Below are positions 27,438 through 37,011 of a DNA stretch of 64,000 bases, piece by piece. The notes beneath the pieces are model-generated. The model was given only the letters and a program-made list of their open reading frames with translations. It did not search any database and was not told the origin of the DNA. This stretch comes from Streptomyces phaeochromogenes. Lineage in GTDB: Bacteria > Actinomycetota > Actinomycetes > Streptomycetales > Streptomycetaceae. Position numbers and translations under genes: made by a program. Where the stretch lies: assembly GCF_001418655.1 (NCBI RefSeq), contig NZ_LIQZ01000405.1, positions 1 to 64,000 on the forward strand, read 5' to 3'. Within the stretch, counting starts at the first letter, position 1, and each line of letters begins with the position of its first letter.

Positions 27438-28772
27438 TCACTGACGGTTCGTGAGACCCGACTCGTCGTCCACGCCGTTGCCGTTCTGGTCCTCGACCTG
27501 ACCGTTCTGGTCCTCGACGCCGCCGACCTGCTCCTCGCCGCCGACCTCTTCGCCGCCGACAGCGTCGCCACCGGCACCGGCCTCTTCGCCAGCTCCGGCT
27601 TCCTCACCGGCACCGGCCTCTTCACCGGCGCCGGCCTCCTCGCCGGCACCGGCACCCGCGTCGCCCGCACCGAGCGTCGCGCCGACCGCGGCCAGCGCGG
27701 TGGTCACCGGCTGGAAGAAGGTCTCGCCGCCGACGGTGCAGTCGCCGCTGCCGCCGGAGGTCAGGCCGATCGCGCTGCCGTCCGCGGTGAACAGGGAGCC
27801 GCCGCTGTCGCCGGGCTCGGCGCAGACGTTGGTCTGGATGAGACCGGTGACCGTGCCCTCCGGATAGTTCACGGTGGCATTGAGACCGGTGACCTCACCG
27901 TCGTTCAGGCCGGTGGTGCTGCCCATCCGGATGACGGCCTGGCCGACCGCGGCCTCCGCGGCCTGGGTGATCTCCACCGACTGCTGGCCGGTGTTCACGG
28001 TGCTGGGTGCCTCGGTCGCCGGGTCGTCGTACTTGACGAGGGCGAAGTCGCCGTCACCGGGGAACGTGGCGGCCTCGACCGTACCGATCGGTGCGCCGGC
28101 CTCGGAGTCCGACCACTCGGCAGCGGCGACACCGCAGTGACCCGCCGTCAGGAAGGCCGGGGAGCCGTCGTCGGCGACGACGTTGAAGCCGAGCGAGCAG
28201 CGTGCGCCGCCGCCGAAGATGGCGTCGCCGCCCTCGACGAACGTCTTGAACGTGCCGGCCGACTTCTTGATGGTCGCCATGCCCGAACCGAGGGTGCTGA
28301 CGGTCGACTCGAGCTGGTCCCACTTTGCGCCCGTGACGGTGCTGTCGGCGGTGACCTGGATCTTGTTCGTCCTGGGATCGACGGCCCACGAGGTGCCGGG
28401 GATGGTCGCGTCGGCCTTCAGCGTCTGCGAGGCCGCCGTGAGCTCCTTGGTGCTGTTGTCGACCTGCTGGACGACGGCACCGGCCTCCTCGGCCTGAACG
28501 ATGATGTTGTTGTCGTCGCCCACGACGTTGATGATGAGCTGCTGCTTGCCCGAGTCGTAGTACGCACCGGCATAGGCTTCACCGAGCAGTTCGGCCAGCT
28601 GCGAGGCGAGGTCGGACGCCTCCGCGGCCTTCACCGTTCTGGGGGCGGCACCTTCCGTCGCATCGGTCTGGGACGCCATCGCGTTGGGCAGGATGAGTGC
28701 CGCCGCGCCGAGCGCCACCACGCTTCCTGCGGCTATGACGGCCTTGCGCTTGGGTATCCGCTTGTGACTCAA
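27438..28772 (-). CDS. Secreted S1-family (streptogrisin-like) serine protease with acidic repeat tail
   Basis: A 444-residue zymogen. Signal peptide 1-33 (KAVIAAGSVVALGAAALILP), alpha-lytic-type prodomain to about 180, then the protease: His212 (LTAGHC), Asp242 (GDFALVKYD) and Ser323 (GDSGGS), with disulfide pairs likely C192-C213 and C317-C345. After the catalytic domain, about 75 residues form an acidic low-complexity tail with four GAGEEA copies (375-400) and a Gln/Asn/Asp-rich end (EDQNGQVEDQNGNGVDDESG). No sortase signal is present. The TTG start is set by AGGAGGT seven bases upstream. The tail may bind cations or the cell wall; that is inference. Confidence 0.92.
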   Translation of the reverse strand: MSHKRIPKRKAVIAAGSVVALGAAALILPNAMASQTDATEGAAPRTVKAAEASDLASQLAELLGEAYAGAYYDSGKQQLIINVVGDDNNIIVQAEEAGAVVQQVDNSTKELTAASQTLKADATIPGTSWAVDPRTNKIQVTADSTVTGAKWDQLESTVSTLGSGMATIKKSAGTFKTFVEGGDAIFGGGARCSLGFNVVADDGSPAFLTAGHCGVAAAEWSDSEAGAPIGTVEAATFPGDGDFALVKYDDPATEAPSTVNTGQQSVEITQAAEAAVGQAVIRMGSTTGLNDGEVTGLNATVNYPEGTVTGLIQTNVCAEPGDSGGSLFTADGSAIGLTSGGSGDCTVGGETFFQPVTTALAAVGATLGAGDAGAGAGEEAGAGEEAGAGEEAGAGEEAGAGGDAVGGEEVGGEEQVGGVEDQNGQVEDQNGNGVDDESGLTNRQ

Positions 28773-29546: not shown

Positions 29547-30242
29547 ATGGCAAAGATTCTTTTCGTAGTGACCGGTACCGACTTCTGGACTCTCGCCGAC
29601 GGCACCAAGCACCCCACCGGCTTCTGGGCCGAGGAGGCCGTCGCCCCGCACAAGGCGTTCAAGGCTGCGGGGTACGAGGTCGTCGTGGCCACCCCGGGCG
29701 GCGTCGTGCCGACCGTGGACCGGGGCAGCCTGGCTCCCGAGTTCAACGGCGGCGAGGAGGGCGCCGCCGAGGTCACCGCCGCTCTCGGGGCGTTCGCCGA
29801 GCTCCAGCACCCCATCCGTGTGGAGGACGTGGACCTGGCCGAGTACGCGGCCGTCTTCTACCCCGGCGGCCACGGCCCCATGGAGGACCTCGCCGTCAAC
29901 GCGGACTCGGGGCGGCTCCTCACCCTCGCCCTGGAGTCCGGCAAGCCGCTCGGTGTCGTCTGCCACGCCCCGGCCGCACTGCTGGCCGCCACGAAGGAGG
30001 ACGGCTCCAACGCCTTCGCGGGCTACCGGCTGACCGGCTTCACCAACACCGAGGAGACCCAGGCCGGTTTCGCCGACAAGGCCAAGTGGCTGCTGCAGGA
30101 CCGGTTGGTGGAGGCCGGCGCCGACTTCCAGGAGAGCGAGCCGTGGGCGCCGTACGTGGTCGTCGACCGCAACCTCGTCACGGGCCAGAACCCCGCCTCC
30201 TCCGCGCCGCTCGCCGCCGAGCTCCTGAAGAAGCTCGGCTGA
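29547..30242 (+). CDS. DJ-1/PfpI-family (Hsp31-like) glutamine amidotransferase-fold protein
   Basis: A 231-residue type-1 glutamine amidotransferase-like protein. The nucleophile is Cys139 followed by His140 in GVVCHAPAALL; YPGGHGPMEDL (105-115) is the conserved oxyanion region, and the acidic partner is expected near E29-E30. Length and the long insertion after residue 10 fit the Hsp31/YhbO-like chaperone-glyoxalase group rather than the short proteases. A leaderless start is predicted. A large hairpin follows 120 bases after the stop. The substrate may be methylglyoxal or glycated proteins; that follows from the family, not from this sequence. Confidence 0.85.
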   Translation: MAKILFVVTGTDFWTLADGTKHPTGFWAEEAVAPHKAFKAAGYEVVVATPGGVVPTVDRGSLAPEFNGGEEGAAEVTAALGAFAELQHPIRVEDVDLAEYAAVFYPGGHGPMEDLAVNADSGRLLTLALESGKPLGVVCHAPAALLAATKEDGSNAFAGYRLTGFTNTEETQAGFADKAKWLLQDRLVEAGADFQESEPWAPYVVVDRNLVTGQNPASSAPLAAELLKKLG

Positions 30243-30364
30243 CGCCACTCCCGTAACAGAGGCCATCGGCTTGCACTCCGCCACCACGCGGTAACAGCCC
30301 GTTCGAGTCAGGGAGCGGAATCCCGGCTTCAGCAAATCTGCACATCGAATACGCACCCGGGTCA

Positions 30365-30404
30365 CGGCACGCGACGAATCCACACAGTGGATCGTCGCGT
30401 GCCG
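30365..30404. terminator. Long hairpin after the PfpI gene
   Basis: Arms of 18-19 bases, CGGCACGCGACGA(A)TCCAC against GTGGATCGTCGCGTGCCG, interrupted by one bulged A and closed by loop ACA. CGTCTTT follows on the plus strand. It probably ends the PfpI transcript and insulates the peptide operon. Confidence 0.65.
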
Positions 30405-30724
30405 CGTCTTTGGAGAGGTGTGCCCGATTCGGGCCGGCACTCTTTGTTGCCGAAATGTGAATCACCCCGGGGGCATGTGAAGAAGTCGCCACCGAGACGT
30501 GCGCACGCCTGCACCGTTGGGTCGATCCGGCTGTCAAATGCCCTGATCACATGGGTCGTTGATTGGATGAGTGGCGCGGCAGCGTGCTTTGATCCATTGC
30601 ACCGCGGGGGTCGTTCGACGGTTCCCGGTTCCGGGTTCCGGACGCCCGCGGTCGCGGCCGTCCATCTGTCCCCAGAGGGGGCCGCTCCCCCCTTGTGAAT
30701 ATCAATAGGAAGGGAAGTTCCATC
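30405..30724. other. 320-bp leader/promoter region of the NHLM peptide operon
   Basis: No supported gene. It contains short G/C repeats (GTTCCCG, GTTCCGG, GTTCCGG at 30618-30640) that resemble the arms of the hairpin at 30969. The ribosome site GGAAGGGAAG lies just before the peptide ATG. A promoter must lie here but I cannot place it firmly. Confidence 0.4.
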
Positions 30725-30940
30725 ATGAACTCCACCCCCCAGGTTGCCACCGTCGAGATCTCCGACGCTGAGCTCGACAACGTCTCCGGTGGCCTCTCGG
30801 TCAACGCGCTCGGCACCGTCACGGGCGTCGTCGACGGCATCGCCCCGGTTTCCGGCCTGGTCGACACCGTCGTGGGCACCGTTGAGGGCGCGACCGGCCT
30901 GAACACCGCCCCGGTCACCGGCCTGGTCGCCGGCATCTGA
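30725..30940 (+). CDS. Double-glycine-leader peptide, Cys-free Gly/Val-rich core (NHLM cargo)
   Basis: A 71-residue secreted-peptide precursor. The 23-residue leader ends in ELDNVSGG, with Leu at -7, Val at -4 and Ile at -12, the classic signature cleaved by C39 peptidase exporters. The 48-residue core has no Cys, no Lys/Arg and no aromatic residue; it is built of Gly, Val, Thr, Ala with the near-repeat APVSGLV / APVTGLV and GxxxG spacing. Similar proteins are labelled type A2 lantipeptide in databases, but no cysteine is available for lanthionine. It leads an operon of HlyD and two ABC exporters. It may act as an unmodified membrane-active or signalling peptide; that is inference. Confidence 0.85.
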   Translation: MNSTPQVATVEISDAELDNVSGGLSVNALGTVTGVVDGIAPVSGLVDTVVGTVEGATGLNTAPVTGLVAGI

Positions 30941-30968
30941 TCACTCTGTGATCGCATAGCGTGCCGTG

Positions 30969-30999
30969 AGTCCCGGAACCGCTTCCCGGTTCCGGGACT
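30969..30999. terminator. Hairpin between peptide gene and exporter genes
   Basis: Perfect 13-bp arms AGTCCCGGAACCG and CGGTTCCGGGACT, loop CTTCC, 29 bases after the peptide stop. With only a TT following, it is likely a partial terminator that keeps peptide transcripts above exporter transcripts, or a 3' stabiliser. Confidence 0.7.
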
Positions 31000-31047
31000 T
31001 ACGGATGTCGTAGTTCGGATCTCATTTCTCGCAGGTGAGGGAAGACC

Positions 31048-31854
31048 GTGCAGTTCCGCCAACAGGCCCTCGCCAAGCTGCAGTCGCCGGAGGAGCTCGA
31101 CCTCCCGGTGCGCTTCGCCCGCCCCCAGGGCTGGCTCGTGCTGTTCGTGACGGTGGTCGTCATGGCCGCCGCGTCGGTCTGGGCCGTGACGGGCTCCGTG
31201 GCGTCCACGGTCAGCGCGCCCGCCATCCTCACGCACGGGCAGGGCAGTTACCTCCTGCAGAGCCCCGTCTCCGGCCAGGTCACCGCGGTCGTCGCCGAGC
31301 AGGGCCAACGGATCGCCGCGAACGCCCCCGTGCTCAAGGTCCGTACCGCGAAGGGCGAGACGGTCGTACGCAGTGTCGCCGCGGGCCGGGTCACCGGGCT
31401 CGCCGCCACGATCGGCGCGATCATCAGCACCGGTACGAACGTGGCCGCCGTGGAGAAGGTCGCCGACACCGACGACCCGCTGTACGCGACGGTGTACGTG
31501 CCCGCCGAGAACGCCGCCATGATTCCCTCGGACGCGGCCGTCGACCTCACCGTCCAGTCCGCGCCGACCCAGCAGTACGGGGTGCTGCGCGGCCATGTGA
31601 AGTCGGTCGACCGGGCCGCCCAGTCGGAGCAGCAGATCGCCGCCTTCCTCGGTGACAGCCAGCTGGGTGAGCAGTTCACGAAGAAGGGCAGGCCGGTGGC
31701 CGTCCTCGTCCGGCTCGACCGTTCGTCGGGCACGAAGTCCGGCTACAAGTGGTCGTCGGCGGACGGTCCGCCGTTCCGGCTGAGCTCCATGACCGTGGCC
31801 TCCGGCTCGATCCGCCTGGAGGACCAGCGCCCGATCGATTGGCTGCTGCCGTGA
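31048..31854 (+). CDS. HlyD-family secretion protein of NHLM peptide exporter
   Basis: A 268-residue membrane fusion protein. One N-terminal transmembrane helix (about 28-50, GWLVLFVTVVVMAAASVWAV) is followed by a biotinyl-lipoyl-like domain (LLQSPVSGQVTAVVAEQGQ) and a beta-barrel. It is shorter than Gram-negative HlyD proteins and lacks a long coiled coil, as expected for a Gram-positive exporter. The start is GTG. The stop overlaps the next GTG as GTGA, so subunits are probably made in fixed ratio. The family call follows NHLM bacteriocin secretion proteins. Confidence 0.87.
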   Translation: MQFRQQALAKLQSPEELDLPVRFARPQGWLVLFVTVVVMAAASVWAVTGSVASTVSAPAILTHGQGSYLLQSPVSGQVTAVVAEQGQRIAANAPVLKVRTAKGETVVRSVAAGRVTGLAATIGAIISTGTNVAAVEKVADTDDPLYATVYVPAENAAMIPSDAAVDLTVQSAPTQQYGVLRGHVKSVDRAAQSEQQIAAFLGDSQLGEQFTKKGRPVAVLVRLDRSSGTKSGYKWSSADGPPFRLSSMTVASGSIRLEDQRPIDWLLP

Positions 31855-34115
31855 GCGCGACCGACGAGTCCACCACCGCGGCCGGCCGGGAGTCACAACT
31901 GCCGCCGCCCGTACGGGGCCGCCGCAAGGCCACCCCGCCCAAGCGCACCGTCCCCAAGGGCCGGGTCAGGACCGTCCGTACGCCCACCGTCCTCCAGATG
32001 GAGGCCGTGGAGTGCGGCGCCGCCTCGCTCGCGATGGTGCTCGGTCACTACGGACGGCACATCCCGCTGGAGGAGCTGCGCATCGCCTGCGGTGTCTCGC
32101 GCGACGGCTCCCGGGCCAGCAACCTCCTGAAAGCGGCGCGGAGTTACGGCCTGACCGCCAAGGGCATGCAGATGGACACGGTCGCGCTCGCCGAGGTGCG
32201 GGCTCCGGCGATCCTGTTCTGGGAGTTCAACCACTACGTCGTCTACGACGGCATGGGGCGCCGCTTCGGCCGGCGCGGCGTGCACATCAACGACCCCGGC
32301 AAGGGCCGTCGTTTCGTGCCCATGGAGGACTTCGACACCAGCTTCACCGGTGTCGTGCTGGTCCTGGAGCCGGGTCCGGACTTCAGGAAGGGCGGACGCA
32401 AGCCCGGCGTCATGGGCGCCATGCCGGCCCGGCTGCGCGGCACCTCGGGCACGATGCCCGCCGCCGTCCTGGCGAGCCTGCTGCTGGTCGCGGTCGGAGC
32501 GGCGGTGCCCGCGCTCAGCCGAACGTACATCGACATGTTCCTGATCGGCGGGCAGACCTCGCTGCTCGGGGTGCTGTTCTCGTCGATGGGCGCGACGGTG
32601 CTGCTGACGGTCGTGCTGACCTGGCTGCAGCAGACGAACCTGCTGCGCGGCCGCATCATCTCGTCCACGCTCAGCAGCGCGAAGTTCCTCCGGCATCTGA
32701 TGCGGCTGCCGGTCACCTTCTTCTCCCAGCGCAGCCCGGCCGACCTGGTGCAGCGCCTCCAGTCCAACGACGCGGTGGCCGAGACCCTGGCCCGGGACCT
32801 CGCGGCGGCGGGCGTGGACGCGGTGGTCGTCGTCCTCTACGCCGTGCTGCTCTACACATACGATCCGCAGCTCACGGCCGTGGGCATCGGGGTCGCGCTC
32901 CTCAACATCGTGGCGATGCGGGTGGTGATCCGGCTGCGCGCAACGCGTACGGCCAAGCTGCGCGCCGACAGCGCGCGGCTCACCAACACGGCGTACACGG
33001 GCCTCCAGTTGATCGAGACGATGAAGGCGACCGGCGGCGAGGAGGGCTACTTCCGCAAGTGGGCCGGGCAGCACGCCACCACACTGGAGGAGCAGCAGCG
33101 ACTCGGGGTGCCGAGTGCCTGGCTGGGGGTGGTCGCGCCGACGCTCGCGACGCTCAACAGCGCGCTGATCCTGTGGATCGGCGGGATGCGGGCCGTGGAG
33201 GGACACATATCCGTCGGTCTGCTCGTCGCGTTCCAGGCGCTGGTGACCCGCTTCACCGCGCCGATCACCCGGCTCAACGGCGTCGCGGGCCGCATCCAGG
33301 ACTTCGCGGCCGACGTGGCCCGTCTGAAGGACGTCGAGAACTTCGCGGCCGACCCGCTCTACTCGCGCCGCGGCGGGGGCGACAGCACGCGCAGGCTGCA
33401 CGGCCATGTGGAGCTGGAGAACATCACGTTCGGCTACAGCCCGCTCGACAAGCCCCTGCTGTCCGGCTTCTCGCTGACGGTCGGCCCGGGCCAGCAGGTC
33501 GCCCTGGTCGGCGGCTCGGGCAGCGGCAAGTCGACGGTGTCCAGGCTGATTTCGGGACTCTACGCGCCCTGGGAGGGCGTGATCCGTATCGACGACCAGC
33601 GTCTGGACGACATTCCACGCGGTGCGCTGGCGGCCTCCGTCTCCTTCGTCGACCAGGACGTGTTCCTCTTCGAGGGCACGGTCCGCGACAACATCGCGCT
33701 GTGGGACCCGTCGGTCCCGGACGAGGCCGTGGTCGCGGCGCTTGAGGACGCCGCCCTGTACGACGTGGTGATGCGCCGCCCGGGCGGAATCCAGAGCCGG
33801 GTCGAGCAGGACGGGCGGAACTTCTCCGGCGGTCAGCGGCAACGCCTGGAGATCGCAAGGGCGTTGGTGCGCAGGCCCAGCATCCTCGTGCTCGACGAGG
33901 TGACGAGCGCCCTCGACGCGGAGACCGAGCAGCTCGTCATGGACAACCTGCGCAAGCGCGGCTGTGCCTGCGTGGTGATCGCGCACCGGCTCAGCACCGT
34001 GCGCGACAGCGACGAGATCGTGGTGCTCCAGCACGGCACGATCGTGGAACGCGGGCGTCACGACGCCCTGGTGGCGGCCGGCGGCGCGTACGCCGAGCTG
34101 GTCAGGGAGCGATGA
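31851..34115 (+). CDS. NHLM-type ABC exporter with C39 peptidase domain
   Basis: A 754-residue exporter that removes the leader and transports the peptide. The N-terminal C39 domain has Cys55 (QMEAVECGAAS), His128 (FNHYVVYDG) and Asp148 (INDPGKG). The six-helix membrane domain covers about 205-480. The ATPase has Walker A GGSGSGKST (554-562), signature FSGGQRQR and Walker B ILVLDEVTSALD. The cognate substrate is almost certainly the GG-leader peptide at 30725, the only such precursor in the operon. The gene overlaps hlyD by four bases and is one base from the next ABC gene. Confidence 0.93.
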   Translation: MSATDESTTAAGRESQLPPPVRGRRKATPPKRTVPKGRVRTVRTPTVLQMEAVECGAASLAMVLGHYGRHIPLEELRIACGVSRDGSRASNLLKAARSYGLTAKGMQMDTVALAEVRAPAILFWEFNHYVVYDGMGRRFGRRGVHINDPGKGRRFVPMEDFDTSFTGVVLVLEPGPDFRKGGRKPGVMGAMPARLRGTSGTMPAAVLASLLLVAVGAAVPALSRTYIDMFLIGGQTSLLGVLFSSMGATVLLTVVLTWLQQTNLLRGRIISSTLSSAKFLRHLMRLPVTFFSQRSPADLVQRLQSNDAVAETLARDLAAAGVDAVVVVLYAVLLYTYDPQLTAVGIGVALLNIVAMRVVIRLRATRTAKLRADSARLTNTAYTGLQLIETMKATGGEEGYFRKWAGQHATTLEEQQRLGVPSAWLGVVAPTLATLNSALILWIGGMRAVEGHISVGLLVAFQALVTRFTAPITRLNGVAGRIQDFAADVARLKDVENFAADPLYSRRGGGDSTRRLHGHVELENITFGYSPLDKPLLSGFSLTVGPGQQVALVGGSGSGKSTVSRLISGLYAPWEGVIRIDDQRLDDIPRGALAASVSFVDQDVFLFEGTVRDNIALWDPSVPDEAVVAALEDAALYDVVMRRPGGIQSRVEQDGRNFSGGQRQRLEIARALVRRPSILVLDEVTSALDAETEQLVMDNLRKRGCACVVIAHRLSTVRDSDEIVVLQHGTIVERGRHDALVAAGGAYAELVRER

Positions 34116-34116
34116 G

Positions 34117-37011
34117 ATGACATCCGCGTACCCGCAGAACCATCAGAACCCACAAATCCCACAAGACCATCAGCACCCGCAGCACGAGCAGCCCCAACAG
34201 CCCGCCACCGAGGGCGACTACGTGCTCGGCGCGCTCGGCGGCATGGGCACCCCGGTCGACGGCTCCGGCCTCACCCGTCTGGACCTCGAAGGGCCGCACG
34301 TGCTGTGGCTGGTCGTGTCCGGCGCCATGGACCTGTTCGCGGTCGATGCCGCCCAGCAGGGCCACTGGCACCACCTCGGCCGCCTCGAAGCGGGCTCACT
34401 GCTGCTCGGCCCGGTCGCGGGACCCCAGCACACCCTGGTCGGCAGGCCGCTGCGCGAGTGCGTACTGCGCCGGATCGCGCTGCGCGAGCTGTACCAGCCG
34501 CCGCAGACCGAGACCTGGACGTACGACGCGTACGGCAACCCGCAGTACGTCCCCCCGGCCACCAGCCCGCTGGAGTACGCCCTCTCGCTCGGCGTCGGCC
34601 GGGGTCTCGCCATCCTCTTCGAGGCGCCTCTCGCGACCGAGCGGGACGCGGCGCTCACGGACGACGACGTGCTGTGGATGCAGGTGCCGCCTGGCAGTGT
34701 GCAGTACGGCTCCATGTACGGCGCCGAGGCCGCGGCGGACCTGCTGGTGGACCCCGCGATGTGGCAGGCGATGGTCGACCAGCAGTACCGGCTGCTGGCC
34801 ACCCTGGACCGCTGGATCGAGCAGCTGGAGCGCACGCACGAGACCCGTACGGCCGCGGGGATCAAGGCGGGCGAGGCGGTCCGCGCGCAGGCCGACCGGA
34901 CGCTCATCGCCTCCATGTCCAAGCGTTCGGGGTCGGGTCCTGGCGCGGCGGACGCCGATGCCACGTACGCCGCGTGCAGGCTCGTCGCGCAGGCTGCCGG
35001 GATCACACTCGCCGACCCGGCGCAGGGCGGCGCGGAGAGCGACCGGCTCGACCCCGTCGAACGGATCGCGCTCGCCTCCCGGGTCCGGGTGCGTGCCGTA
35101 CGCCTCGACGGGCGCTGGTGGCGCGACAACATCGGGCCGCTCGTCGGGCACCGGGTCGCGTCCGGCGCCCCGGCCGCGCTGCTGTGGCGGCGCGGCGGTT
35201 ATGTGGCGGTGCATCCGTCGAGCGGTCGTGAGACGCCGGTCGAGAAGGCCAACGCGGCGGAGTTCGAGCAGCGGGCCGTCATGTTCTACCGGCCGCTGCC
35301 CGAGCGCCGGCTGAGCCCGTTGCGGCTGCTGCGGTTCAGTCTCCGGGGCACCGGCGGGGACATGCGCAACCTCGCGATCAGTGGTCTGGTGACGGTGGCC
35401 CTCGGTGCGCTGGTGCCGATCGCGACCGGCAAGGTGCTCGGCGAGTTCGTGCCGAAGGCCCAGGAGAGCCTCATCGTCCAGTTCTGTCTGGCCATCATGA
35501 TCGCCAGCGTGGTGTCGGCGGCCTTCATGCTGATGCAGAACCTCACCATGCTGCGGCTGGAGGGCCGGATCGAGGCCACGCTCCAACCGGCCGTGTGGGA
35601 CAGGCTGTTGCGGCTGCCGACGAAGTTCTTCACGTCCCGCTCCACCGGTGAACTGGCCAGTGCGGCCATGGGAATCAGCGCGATCCGCCGGCTGATGGCG
35701 GGCGTCGGCCCGGTGGTGGTCCAGTCGGTGACGGTCGGCGCGATGAACCTCGCGCTGCTCTTCTGGTTCAGCGTGCCGATGGCGCTCGCCGCGATCGGGA
35801 TGCTCGTCGTCATCGCGGCCGTGTTCCTCGGACTCGGGCTGTGGCAGGTGCGCTGGCAGCGCCGGCTGGTCGTACTGAGCAACAAGCTCAACAACCAGGC
35901 GTTCCAGACCCTGCGCGGCCTGCCCAAGCTGCGGGTCGCGGCGGCGGAGAACTACGCGTACGCGGCCTGGGCCGGCGAGTTCGCGCGCAGCCGTGAGCTC
36001 CAGCAGCGCGTGGGCCGGATCAAGAACCTCACGACCGTGCTGGGCGCGGTGTACCTGCCGCTCTGCTCGCTCATCATGTTCATGTTGCTGGCGGGCCCCG
36101 CGCGCGGTTCGCTGTCGGCCGCCGCCTTCCTGACGTTCAACACCTCGATGACCATGCTGCTGACCTCGGTCACCCAGGTGACGGGTGCCTTCGTGTCGAT
36201 GGTCTCCGCGCTGCCGATGTTCGAGGAGATCAGGCCGGTCCTCGACGCGACGCCCGAGGTGCGGGTGGCGAGTACGCGCCCCGCCGAGCTGTCCGGAGCC
36301 ATGGAGGCGAAGAAGCTCTCCTTCCGGTACACCGAGGACGGTCCGCTCGTCCTGGACGACGTGTCCTTCGCGATCCGGCCGGGCGAGTTCGTGGCGGTCG
36401 TCGGCCCCAGCGGCTGCGGCAAGTCGACCCTGCTGCGGCTGCTCATCGGCTTCGACAAGCCGGTCTCGGGCAGCGTCCTGTACGACGGCCAGGACCTGGC
36501 GGCCCTCGACCAGTCCGCCGTACGCCGTCAGTGCGGTGTGGTGCTCCAGCACGCGCAGCCCTTCACCGGGTCGATCCTGGACGTCATCTGCGGCACCGAG
36601 CCCTACACGCCCGAGGAGGCGATGGCAGCCGCCGAGATGGCCGGCCTCGCCGAGGACATCAAGCGCATGCCGATGGGCCTGCACACCATCGTCTCCGGCA
36701 GCGGCGCCGTGTCCGGCGGCCAGCGGCAGCGCCTGATGATCGCCCAGGCGCTGATCCGGCGTCCGCGCATCCTGTTCTTCGACGAGGCGACGAGTGCCCT
36801 CGACAACGAGACCCAGCGCACGGTCATCGAGAGCACCCGCGCCCTCAACGCCACGCGTGTGGTGATCGCGCACCGCCTGTCCACCGTCATGGACGCCGAC
36901 CGCGTCATCGTGATGGAGGACGGCCGGGTCGCCCAACAGGGCCCGCCCGCCCAGCTGTTGGCGGAAACGGGCGGGCGGCTGCACGAGCTGGTGCGGCGGC
37001 AGATGCAGTAG
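34117..37011 (+). CDS. NHLM-type ABC transporter, second ATP-binding/permease subunit
   Basis: A 964-residue protein without a peptidase domain. It starts with a Gln/His/Pro-rich segment (1-32), then a ~370-residue region of the type found only in NHLM systems (residues 35-100 resemble a cyclic-nucleotide-binding-like beta fold). The membrane domain covers about 420-690 and the ATPase has Walker A GPSGCGKST (763-771), signature VSGGQRQR and Walker B ILFFDEATSALD. It probably forms a heterodimer with the C39-containing partner. The role of the long N-terminal region is not known. Confidence 0.9.
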   Translation: MTSAYPQNHQNPQIPQDHQHPQHEQPQQPATEGDYVLGALGGMGTPVDGSGLTRLDLEGPHVLWLVVSGAMDLFAVDAAQQGHWHHLGRLEAGSLLLGPVAGPQHTLVGRPLRECVLRRIALRELYQPPQTETWTYDAYGNPQYVPPATSPLEYALSLGVGRGLAILFEAPLATERDAALTDDDVLWMQVPPGSVQYGSMYGAEAAADLLVDPAMWQAMVDQQYRLLATLDRWIEQLERTHETRTAAGIKAGEAVRAQADRTLIASMSKRSGSGPGAADADATYAACRLVAQAAGITLADPAQGGAESDRLDPVERIALASRVRVRAVRLDGRWWRDNIGPLVGHRVASGAPAALLWRRGGYVAVHPSSGRETPVEKANAAEFEQRAVMFYRPLPERRLSPLRLLRFSLRGTGGDMRNLAISGLVTVALGALVPIATGKVLGEFVPKAQESLIVQFCLAIMIASVVSAAFMLMQNLTMLRLEGRIEATLQPAVWDRLLRLPTKFFTSRSTGELASAAMGISAIRRLMAGVGPVVVQSVTVGAMNLALLFWFSVPMALAAIGMLVVIAAVFLGLGLWQVRWQRRLVVLSNKLNNQAFQTLRGLPKLRVAAAENYAYAAWAGEFARSRELQQRVGRIKNLTTVLGAVYLPLCSLIMFMLLAGPARGSLSAAAFLTFNTSMTMLLTSVTQVTGAFVSMVSALPMFEEIRPVLDATPEVRVASTRPAELSGAMEAKKLSFRYTEDGPLVLDDVSFAIRPGEFVAVVGPSGCGKSTLLRLLIGFDKPVSGSVLYDGQDLAALDQSAVRRQCGVVLQHAQPFTGSILDVICGTEPYTPEEAMAAAEMAGLAEDIKRMPMGLHTIVSGSGAVSGGQRQRLMIAQALIRRPRILFFDEATSALDNETQRTVIESTRALNATRVVIAHRLSTVMDADRVIVMEDGRVAQQGPPAQLLAETGGRLHELVRRQMQ

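Follow-up and report, generated by a model that had tools for sequence, protein, structure and literature searches.

A Streptomyces NHLM-type exporter operon for a Cys-free double-glycine peptide, with dispersed exporter-less leader genes and a shared promoter-like element

In the pneumococcal Com and Blp systems, several double-glycine peptides are served by one C39 exporter family and share a promoter element, and the systems include a cognate histidine kinase and immunity genes. The system described here belongs to a different genus, Streptomyces, and has a different element, and no cognate kinase or immunity gene was found among its conserved neighbors. It centers on an operon at positions 30725-37011 of a 64,000-nucleotide (nt) stretch of Streptomyces phaeochromogenes DNA (assembly GCF_001418655.1, contig NZ_LIQZ01000405.1, positions 1 to 64,000 of the forward strand; hereafter the window). 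In this operon the gene for a Cys-free double-glycine precursor is followed by genes for an HlyD-like membrane fusion protein and two ATP-binding cassette (ABC) proteins, ABC1 and ABC2. In many genomes of the genus it is accompanied by leader genes that have no recognizable exporter in the stretch around them and that often carry the same upstream element.

The operon itself is not new, as a counterpart is already in print. The passages available from a 2019 study of Streptomyces coelicolor (PMC6629963) describe SCO0753-0756 as encoding a Cys-free hydrophobic peptide, an HlyD homologue and two ABC proteins, with the peptide probably exported by its neighbors and the same order found in many Streptomyces. 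Gene order and product description are those of the window operon; it is on these, not on sequence, that SCO0753 is equated with the window gene, and the peptide lengths (77 and 71 residues) may differ through choice of start. In the same passages, no gene is more strongly overexpressed than SCO0753 in a strain with dispersed hyphae whose two-component kinase, SCO5282, is encoded by an activating allele; in a null mutant of that two-component system SCO0753 and the putative secretion-system genes are almost silent. Excerpts from other papers report SCO0753 as up-regulated in an aor1 deletion (PMC5733086), list SCO0756 among up-regulated efflux genes (PMC5882110), and tabulate SCO0756 under "bacteriocin biosynthesis" (PMC6414726). 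The available passages of PMC6629963 mention neither exporter-less leader genes nor a shared promoter element, and no earlier report of either was found in the open-access literature; as subscription papers fall outside that coverage, this is weak evidence of absence. What appears to be new is therefore the dispersed exporter-less leader genes and their element, the operon being known.

A second point of comparison is provided by the NHLP and N11P precursors, which, in the portion of the source at hand (PMC2887384), are associated with the same exporter families as the window operon (TIGR03794, TIGR03796, and TIGR03797). As here, leader conservation follows the exporter and not the modification enzymes, and there are several precursors per genome with variable cores. 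However, these precursors have leaders similar to nitrile hydratase or Nif11, and many of them lie near cyclodehydratase or LanM genes. The window leader differs in being of a short, 23-residue double-glycine type, in having no conserved modification gene beside it and in being preceded by the promoter-like element; no nitrile hydratase-like or Nif11-like leader appears among the NCBIfam or Pfam matches of the precursor at E up to 1. Among solved structures, ABC1 matches ComA (PDB entry 8hf7) and, over its full length, the PCAT1-type peptidase-containing ABC transporter (PDB entry 4ry2; residues 81-784, E 5.7e-99). Unlike PCAT1, ABC1 is paired with the peptidase-less ABC2 and the HlyD-like protein.

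It is probable that this operon acts as a double-glycine export hub of Streptomyces, serving a dispersed and largely promoter-defined set of unmodified peptides. The precursor gene (30725-30940, + strand) encodes 71 residues. Its leader, MNSTPQVATVEISDAELDNVSGG (30725..30793), comprises 23 residues, of which M1, E11, D14, L17, V20, G22, and G23 are invariant across 24 aligned leaders. A profile built from the leader by itself (24 residues; threshold E 1e-3) matched 286 of 392 genomes of the genus, and hlyD (threshold E 1e-10) matched 288. Leader and hlyD occur together in 284 genomes, the leader alone in 2, hlyD alone in 4, and neither in 102; leader and exporter are thus found together in 284 of the 290 genomes that have either (Fisher p 1.4e-86, not corrected for relatedness). 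Outside the genus, the leader has no match at E 1e-3 in 24 genomes (two matches have E values of 0.06 and 0.09). Among 119 genomes drawn from the order, 81 are leader-positive, and every one of these belongs to the genus itself. A scan of named genomes gave at least 596 pattern matches, 376 or more of which encode a relative of the peptide; in the best 80, used as named loci, all four genes are present in the same order in 78, the exceptions being the end of a 4-kb contig (L146) and a locus without a full hlyD match (L175). All 80 carry Streptomyces titles apart from one "Kitasatospora aureofaciens" and one "Actinobacteria bacterium".

The leader profile gave 446 matches in the 286 positive genomes, with one leader gene in 159, two in 99, three in 24, four in 3, and five in 1. 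All 127 genomes with two to five leader genes have hlyD, and the additional genes are often far from the exporter, encode other cores and frequently carry the same promoter-like element. The initial annotation had presented the exporter as dedicated to, and purpose-built for, a single peptide, the only cargo candidate. Because further leader genes exist, often remote, with other cores and often with the same element, "dedicated" is unsupported at the level of the genus. The peptide is indeed the only candidate in the window's own genome, which yielded a single leader match in an assembly of 702 contigs that is 94% complete; many relatives carry more. The anatomy given in that description agrees with the sequence: the four genes lie where they had been placed, with their order kept in relatives; the leader is of the C39 double-glycine type; and the core has the stated length, composition and GxxxG/APVxGLV motifs. 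A check suggested at the time, whether the peptide always lies with the three exporter genes, comes out in favor of that description in the named loci and genus-wide counts above.

To compare cores, stretches were fetched from 32 places (one being the window's contig), 6 exporter loci, 4 further leader places, one overlapping stretch, and 80 places picked by hand, mostly non-top leader matches of 118 multi-copy genomes; several of these places turned out to be exporter-linked. All were searched with the leader profile. A leader gene is termed exporter-less here when no exporter match of at least 40% identity lies in the fetched stretch (approximately 4 kb on each side; approximately 9 kb for the first 13), a definition that leaves room for an exporter further away. 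After exclusion of four Cys-rich cores of 14-15 residues (L258 and L259) and one duplicate (L102), 123 cores (40 exporter-linked, 83 exporter-less) were clustered by average linkage; single linkage had merged the Gly-rich families and was replaced. Group 0, which contains the GTVEG/APVSG core, is exporter-linked in all 33 cases, as is group 8 (4/4), and group 9 is mixed (1/3 linked). None of the members of groups 1-7 (24, 10, 9, 8, 7, 6, and 5 cores) is exporter-linked. The two sets also differ in composition: among linked cores, none of 40 contains Cys, and 39 of 40 are free of Lys and Arg and 39 of 40 of aromatic residues, compared with Cys in 17, Lys/Arg-free in 51, and aromatic-free in 25 of the 83 exporter-less cores.

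Many linked and exporter-less genes share a bipartite upstream element of the form TGG-N16-17-GTGCTTTGATC, a putative promoter. In the window it occupies 30559..30594 (+ strand), with TTGATTGGATG at 30559-30569, a gap of 13 nt and CGTGCTTTGATC at 30583-30594; its end lies 131 nt upstream of the ATG, and both TTGATTGGATG and the 12-mer CGTGCTTTGATC occur only once in the window genome. When at least 10 of the 11 letters of GTGCTTTGATC were required within 320 nt upstream, the element was present in 30/33 members of group 0, 22/24 of group 1, 9/10 of group 2, 8/8 of group 4, 7/7 of group 5, and 6/6 of group 6. In 615 shuffled sequences (plain letter shuffles) the best match to GTGCTTTGATC did not exceed nine letters. 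The element is highly specific: allowing one mismatch, with a correctly spaced TGG, it precedes 77 of 125 leader genes and has no other occurrence in 1,338,433 bases; when the TGG is not required, the same bases give 84 occurrences at leader genes and 3 elsewhere, and none for the reversed 11-mer. In 101 whole genomes of the genus, the exact 12-mer CGTGCTTTGATC has 66 matches in 51 genomes, compared with 3 for the reversed-pattern control. Sixty of the 66 are at leader genes, 56 of them 53-153 nt upstream and the others in G103, G120, G082, and G113. The remaining six have neither a TGG at the usual spacing nor a leader nearby, and are taken as chance; they are L303-L308, in G036, G072, G095, G073, G014, and G089. 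The element thus stands upstream of linked and exporter-less genes alike and is rare elsewhere, as is expected of a promoter element shared by a co-regulated set.

The 5' untranslated regions of exporter-linked group 0 and exporter-less group 1 align along their length. An RNA element in this region was considered and rejected, with no consensus fold obtained from 35 sequences (3 pairs, -0.58 kcal/mol); Rfam likewise returned no family at gathering level for 30000-31200, the best being c-di-GMP-I (16.1 bits vs 59).

These distributions bear on whether the exporter-less genes function apart from this exporter, being served by other C39 transporters or representing decaying copies. In two genomes a leader gene does persist where the exporter is missing, and most members of groups 3 and 7 do not have the exact element. 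But a leader gene occurs in just 2 of 104 exporter-negative genomes, compared with two or more in 127 of 288 exporter-positive ones; the leader is preserved next to unrelated cores, and decaying copies would not be expected to share an element. Independence is accordingly regarded as unlikely.

Under the export hub reading, the C39 domain of ABC1 would cut the precursor after Gly23, and a machine of ABC1, ABC2, and HlyD would export the 48-residue core unmodified, as judged from what is known of these families. Dispersed precursors with the same leader, and often the same element, would most likely be expressed together with the operon, and, given the association between leader genes and exporter, their peptides would most likely be exported in trans by this one exporter. 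Most likely, the products would act outside the cell on the producer's hyphae or on its neighbors, at the surface or as signals, and would not be killing peptides with immunity. The fuller proposal, in which a single-copy NHLM exporter, a conserved 23-residue leader and a dedicated element recruit dispersed, unrelated and mostly Cys-free cores into an actinobacterial, unmodified counterpart of the pneumococcal regulons, probably concerned with hyphal surface or colony behavior, stands at about even chances.

Several observations weigh against the hub reading. The element was found upstream of only 1/9 members of group 3, 0/5 of group 7, and 1/4 of group 8, which is itself exporter-linked, so that one regulon does not cover all groups; a variant with GTGCTTACATC occurs in four members of group 7 and three of group 8. 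The count of 77 in 125 was made on the very loci that revealed the motif, and the 101 whole genomes include many that yielded it. Leader-exporter co-occurrence is likewise uncorrected for phylogeny. In the two leader-only genomes (G336 and G370), the leader gene is exporter-less and no ABC2 match is present at E 1e-80, so that another export route or decay is possible there. Of the four genomes with hlyD only, two (G062 and G210) lack a leader and contain NHLM exporters that have diverged (43-46% identity); in the other two, hlyD is on a 3.2-kb contig (G028) or a weak leader match lies 3.8 kb upstream of ABC2 (G399). An AlphaFold2 model of the peptide is helical and uninformative (predicted local distance difference test score 60.5). 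Cleavage and export of these peptides are extrapolated from related families, and the evidence for a surface or signal role consists of one transcriptome correlation and the lack of an immunity gene.

The core, LSVNALGTVTGVVDGIAPVSGLVDTVVGTVEGATGLNTAPVTGLVAGI (30794..30940 including the stop codon), comprises 48 residues without Cys, Lys, Arg, His, Phe, Trp, or Tyr. It contains two GxxxG motifs (GVVDG and GTVEG) and two copies of the APVxGLV repeat, and many of its positions are 95-100% conserved across 81 sequences. Pooled ratios of non-synonymous to synonymous substitution rates (dN/dS) are 0.23 for the leader and 0.49 for the core (81 precursors, 72 distinct), and 0.28 for hlyD (73 sequences). 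The core is under weaker purifying selection than the leader, and nothing at the sampled depth points to an arms race. A profile search of solved structures returned only four weak matches, the best to caveolae proteins (E 0.027), which were taken as composition, and family matches to ATP synthase and FapA were disregarded as composition-driven.

The double-glycine leader, C39 exporter and Gly-rich, hydrophobic, GxxxG-containing core would also suit a class II-like bacteriocin, with a membrane-active killing core and the exporter-less genes as further bacteriocins. The faster evolution of the core relative to the leader, the varied cores of the additional precursors with their tandem pairs (L230, L256, and L257), and a weak match to PF10439 (12.6 bits) lend this some support. 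The PF10439 score is, however, below the cut-off of 27.1; dN/dS of the core remains below 1; the core has no basic residue, a feature shared, as regards Lys and Arg, by 39 of 40 linked cores; and no conserved immunity-like neighbor or small extra gene was found in the exporter loci. A bacteriocin is therefore considered rather unlikely.

A quorum or developmental pheromone sensed by a histidine kinase, in the manner of the Com and Blp peptides, is a doubtful alternative. It would account for the two-component control reported in the available text of PMC6629963 and for the good conservation of the entire core, and some exporter-less genes adjoin genes for extracytoplasmic function (ECF) sigma factors or HTH-DUF5753/DUF397 regulators. 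Yet the length and hydrophobicity of the core suit a pheromone poorly, and among the exporter loci compared the operon has no histidine kinase gene as a conserved neighbor.

Databases offer a further reading: the label "type A2 lantipeptide" has been given to an antiSMASH-detected gene through a 100% BLAST match (PMC13047742, as excerpted). Such a lanthipeptide, or another modified peptide whose enzyme is encoded elsewhere, would find Thr and Ser in the core, and Cys is present in 17 of the 83 exporter-less cores. The precursor, however, scores 13.7 bits against PF04604 (type A2 lantipeptide), for which the cut-off is 21.7, and the Cys needed for lanthionine rings is absent from all 40 exporter-linked cores. 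No lanthionine, radical SAM or cyclodehydratase gene, and no LanM or other synthetase, was found among the annotated conserved neighbors or in the window flanks, a search that covered the annotated part of the loci and not the rest of the genome. A lanthipeptide reading of the exporter-linked peptide was rejected on these three grounds, and modification by a remote enzyme, for which no genome-wide search was made, is judged very improbable. The initial annotation had doubted the lantipeptide label, reported no modification enzyme in the operon and suggested an unmodified product; the label is indeed unfit, the enzymes are missing over the same range, and an unmodified product fits.

A leader-type gene is present in 286 of 392 sampled genomes of the best-studied antibiotic genus, yet no function has been assigned to its products. 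Should the exporter-less genes use the same exporter, a single exporter deletion in a laboratory strain would silence a whole class of secreted peptides, and the promoter element offers a simple handle for finding the regulator, for which SCO5283 is the first candidate. If the hub reading is true, "type A2 lantipeptide" labels on these peptides mislead genome mining.

The exporter genes follow the precursor on the + strand. The HlyD-like protein (31048..31854) scores 150.2 bits against TIGR03794, just under the cut-off of 156.2, and the gene order fits an NHLM-type exporter. ABC1 (31851..34115), comprising C39 peptidase, permease, and ATPase domains, scores 1018.6 bits against TIGR03796 (cut-off 853.3), with 119.8 bits for the C39 domain (PF03412); its open frame extends over 31749-34115, and translation probably starts at an in-frame GTG (31851) that overlaps the hlyD stop. 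ABC2 (34117..37011), with permease and ATPase domains and no peptidase, scores 888.5 bits against TIGR03797 (cut-off 709.4). The Cys, His, and Asp motifs of the C39 domain are intact in all 26 exporter loci scanned, and a leader of the form E/L...V/I.GG thus adjoins a C39 peptidase with intact catalytic residues, as expected of a double-glycine precursor. A ribosome-binding region, GGAAGGGAAG, can be read at 30708..30717 (+ strand), and GAAGGGAA is likewise found ahead of many exporter-less leader genes. Between precursor and hlyD lies a strong hairpin of 18 bp with a 5-nt loop (30964..31004, + strand; z -4.66) and no T-run, possibly an attenuator or mRNA stabilizer; an arm of at least 12 bp is found in 76/80 named loci vs 13/80 shuffled.

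The window flanks encode a thioesterase, DJ-1/PfpI and AHSA1 proteins, an ArsR-type regulator, a hydrolase, a major facilitator superfamily transporter and a solute-binding protein. They also include a secreted S1 protease (27438-28772, - strand) with an alpha-lytic prodomain and a Gly/Glu-rich tail. A homologue of this protease lies in the fetched stretch of 78/80 named loci, and a SpoIIE phosphatase gene near the operon shows the same pattern (73/80). Among relatives, only 14 of 28 exporter loci have the protease at 70% identity or above, and the deepest lineages lack it altogether. In deeper lineages no fifth gene is conserved beside the linked precursor, and the exporter genes alone remain. 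The protease was set aside as a fifth component for its absence from the deepest lineages and the like behavior of the SpoIIE gene; its patchy occurrence and that parallel make regional synteny a simpler reading than a role in maturation or turnover.

Some exporter-less loci have recurrent neighbors of their own. All five group 7 precursors (L060, L184, L189, L191, and L196) are followed, approximately 0.8-0.9 kb on and on the same strand, by an ECF sigma-factor-like gene. Near exporter-less precursors of groups 1, 2, 3, 5, and 7, DUF397 genes occur in 12 of 81 loci and HTH_31-DUF5753 genes in 11 of 81, figures for which no background rate was computed. In group 6, a 129-residue protein without a Pfam match is encoded downstream in opposite orientation in 5/6 loci (L098 and L101 included) and in two others; in L101 it is followed by an RHS-repeat protein with a T7SS (type VII secretion system)-signal domain. 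L230, L256, and L257 contain tandem pairs of leader-type precursors with differing cores, reminiscent of two-peptide systems. Finally, L258 and L259 encode tandem peptides of 37-38 residues with a related leader and the short, very Cys-rich cores excluded above (e.g. DNTYCCCCCPCCTCT); these probably belong to another peptide system, and the ABC genes nearby are weakly similar.

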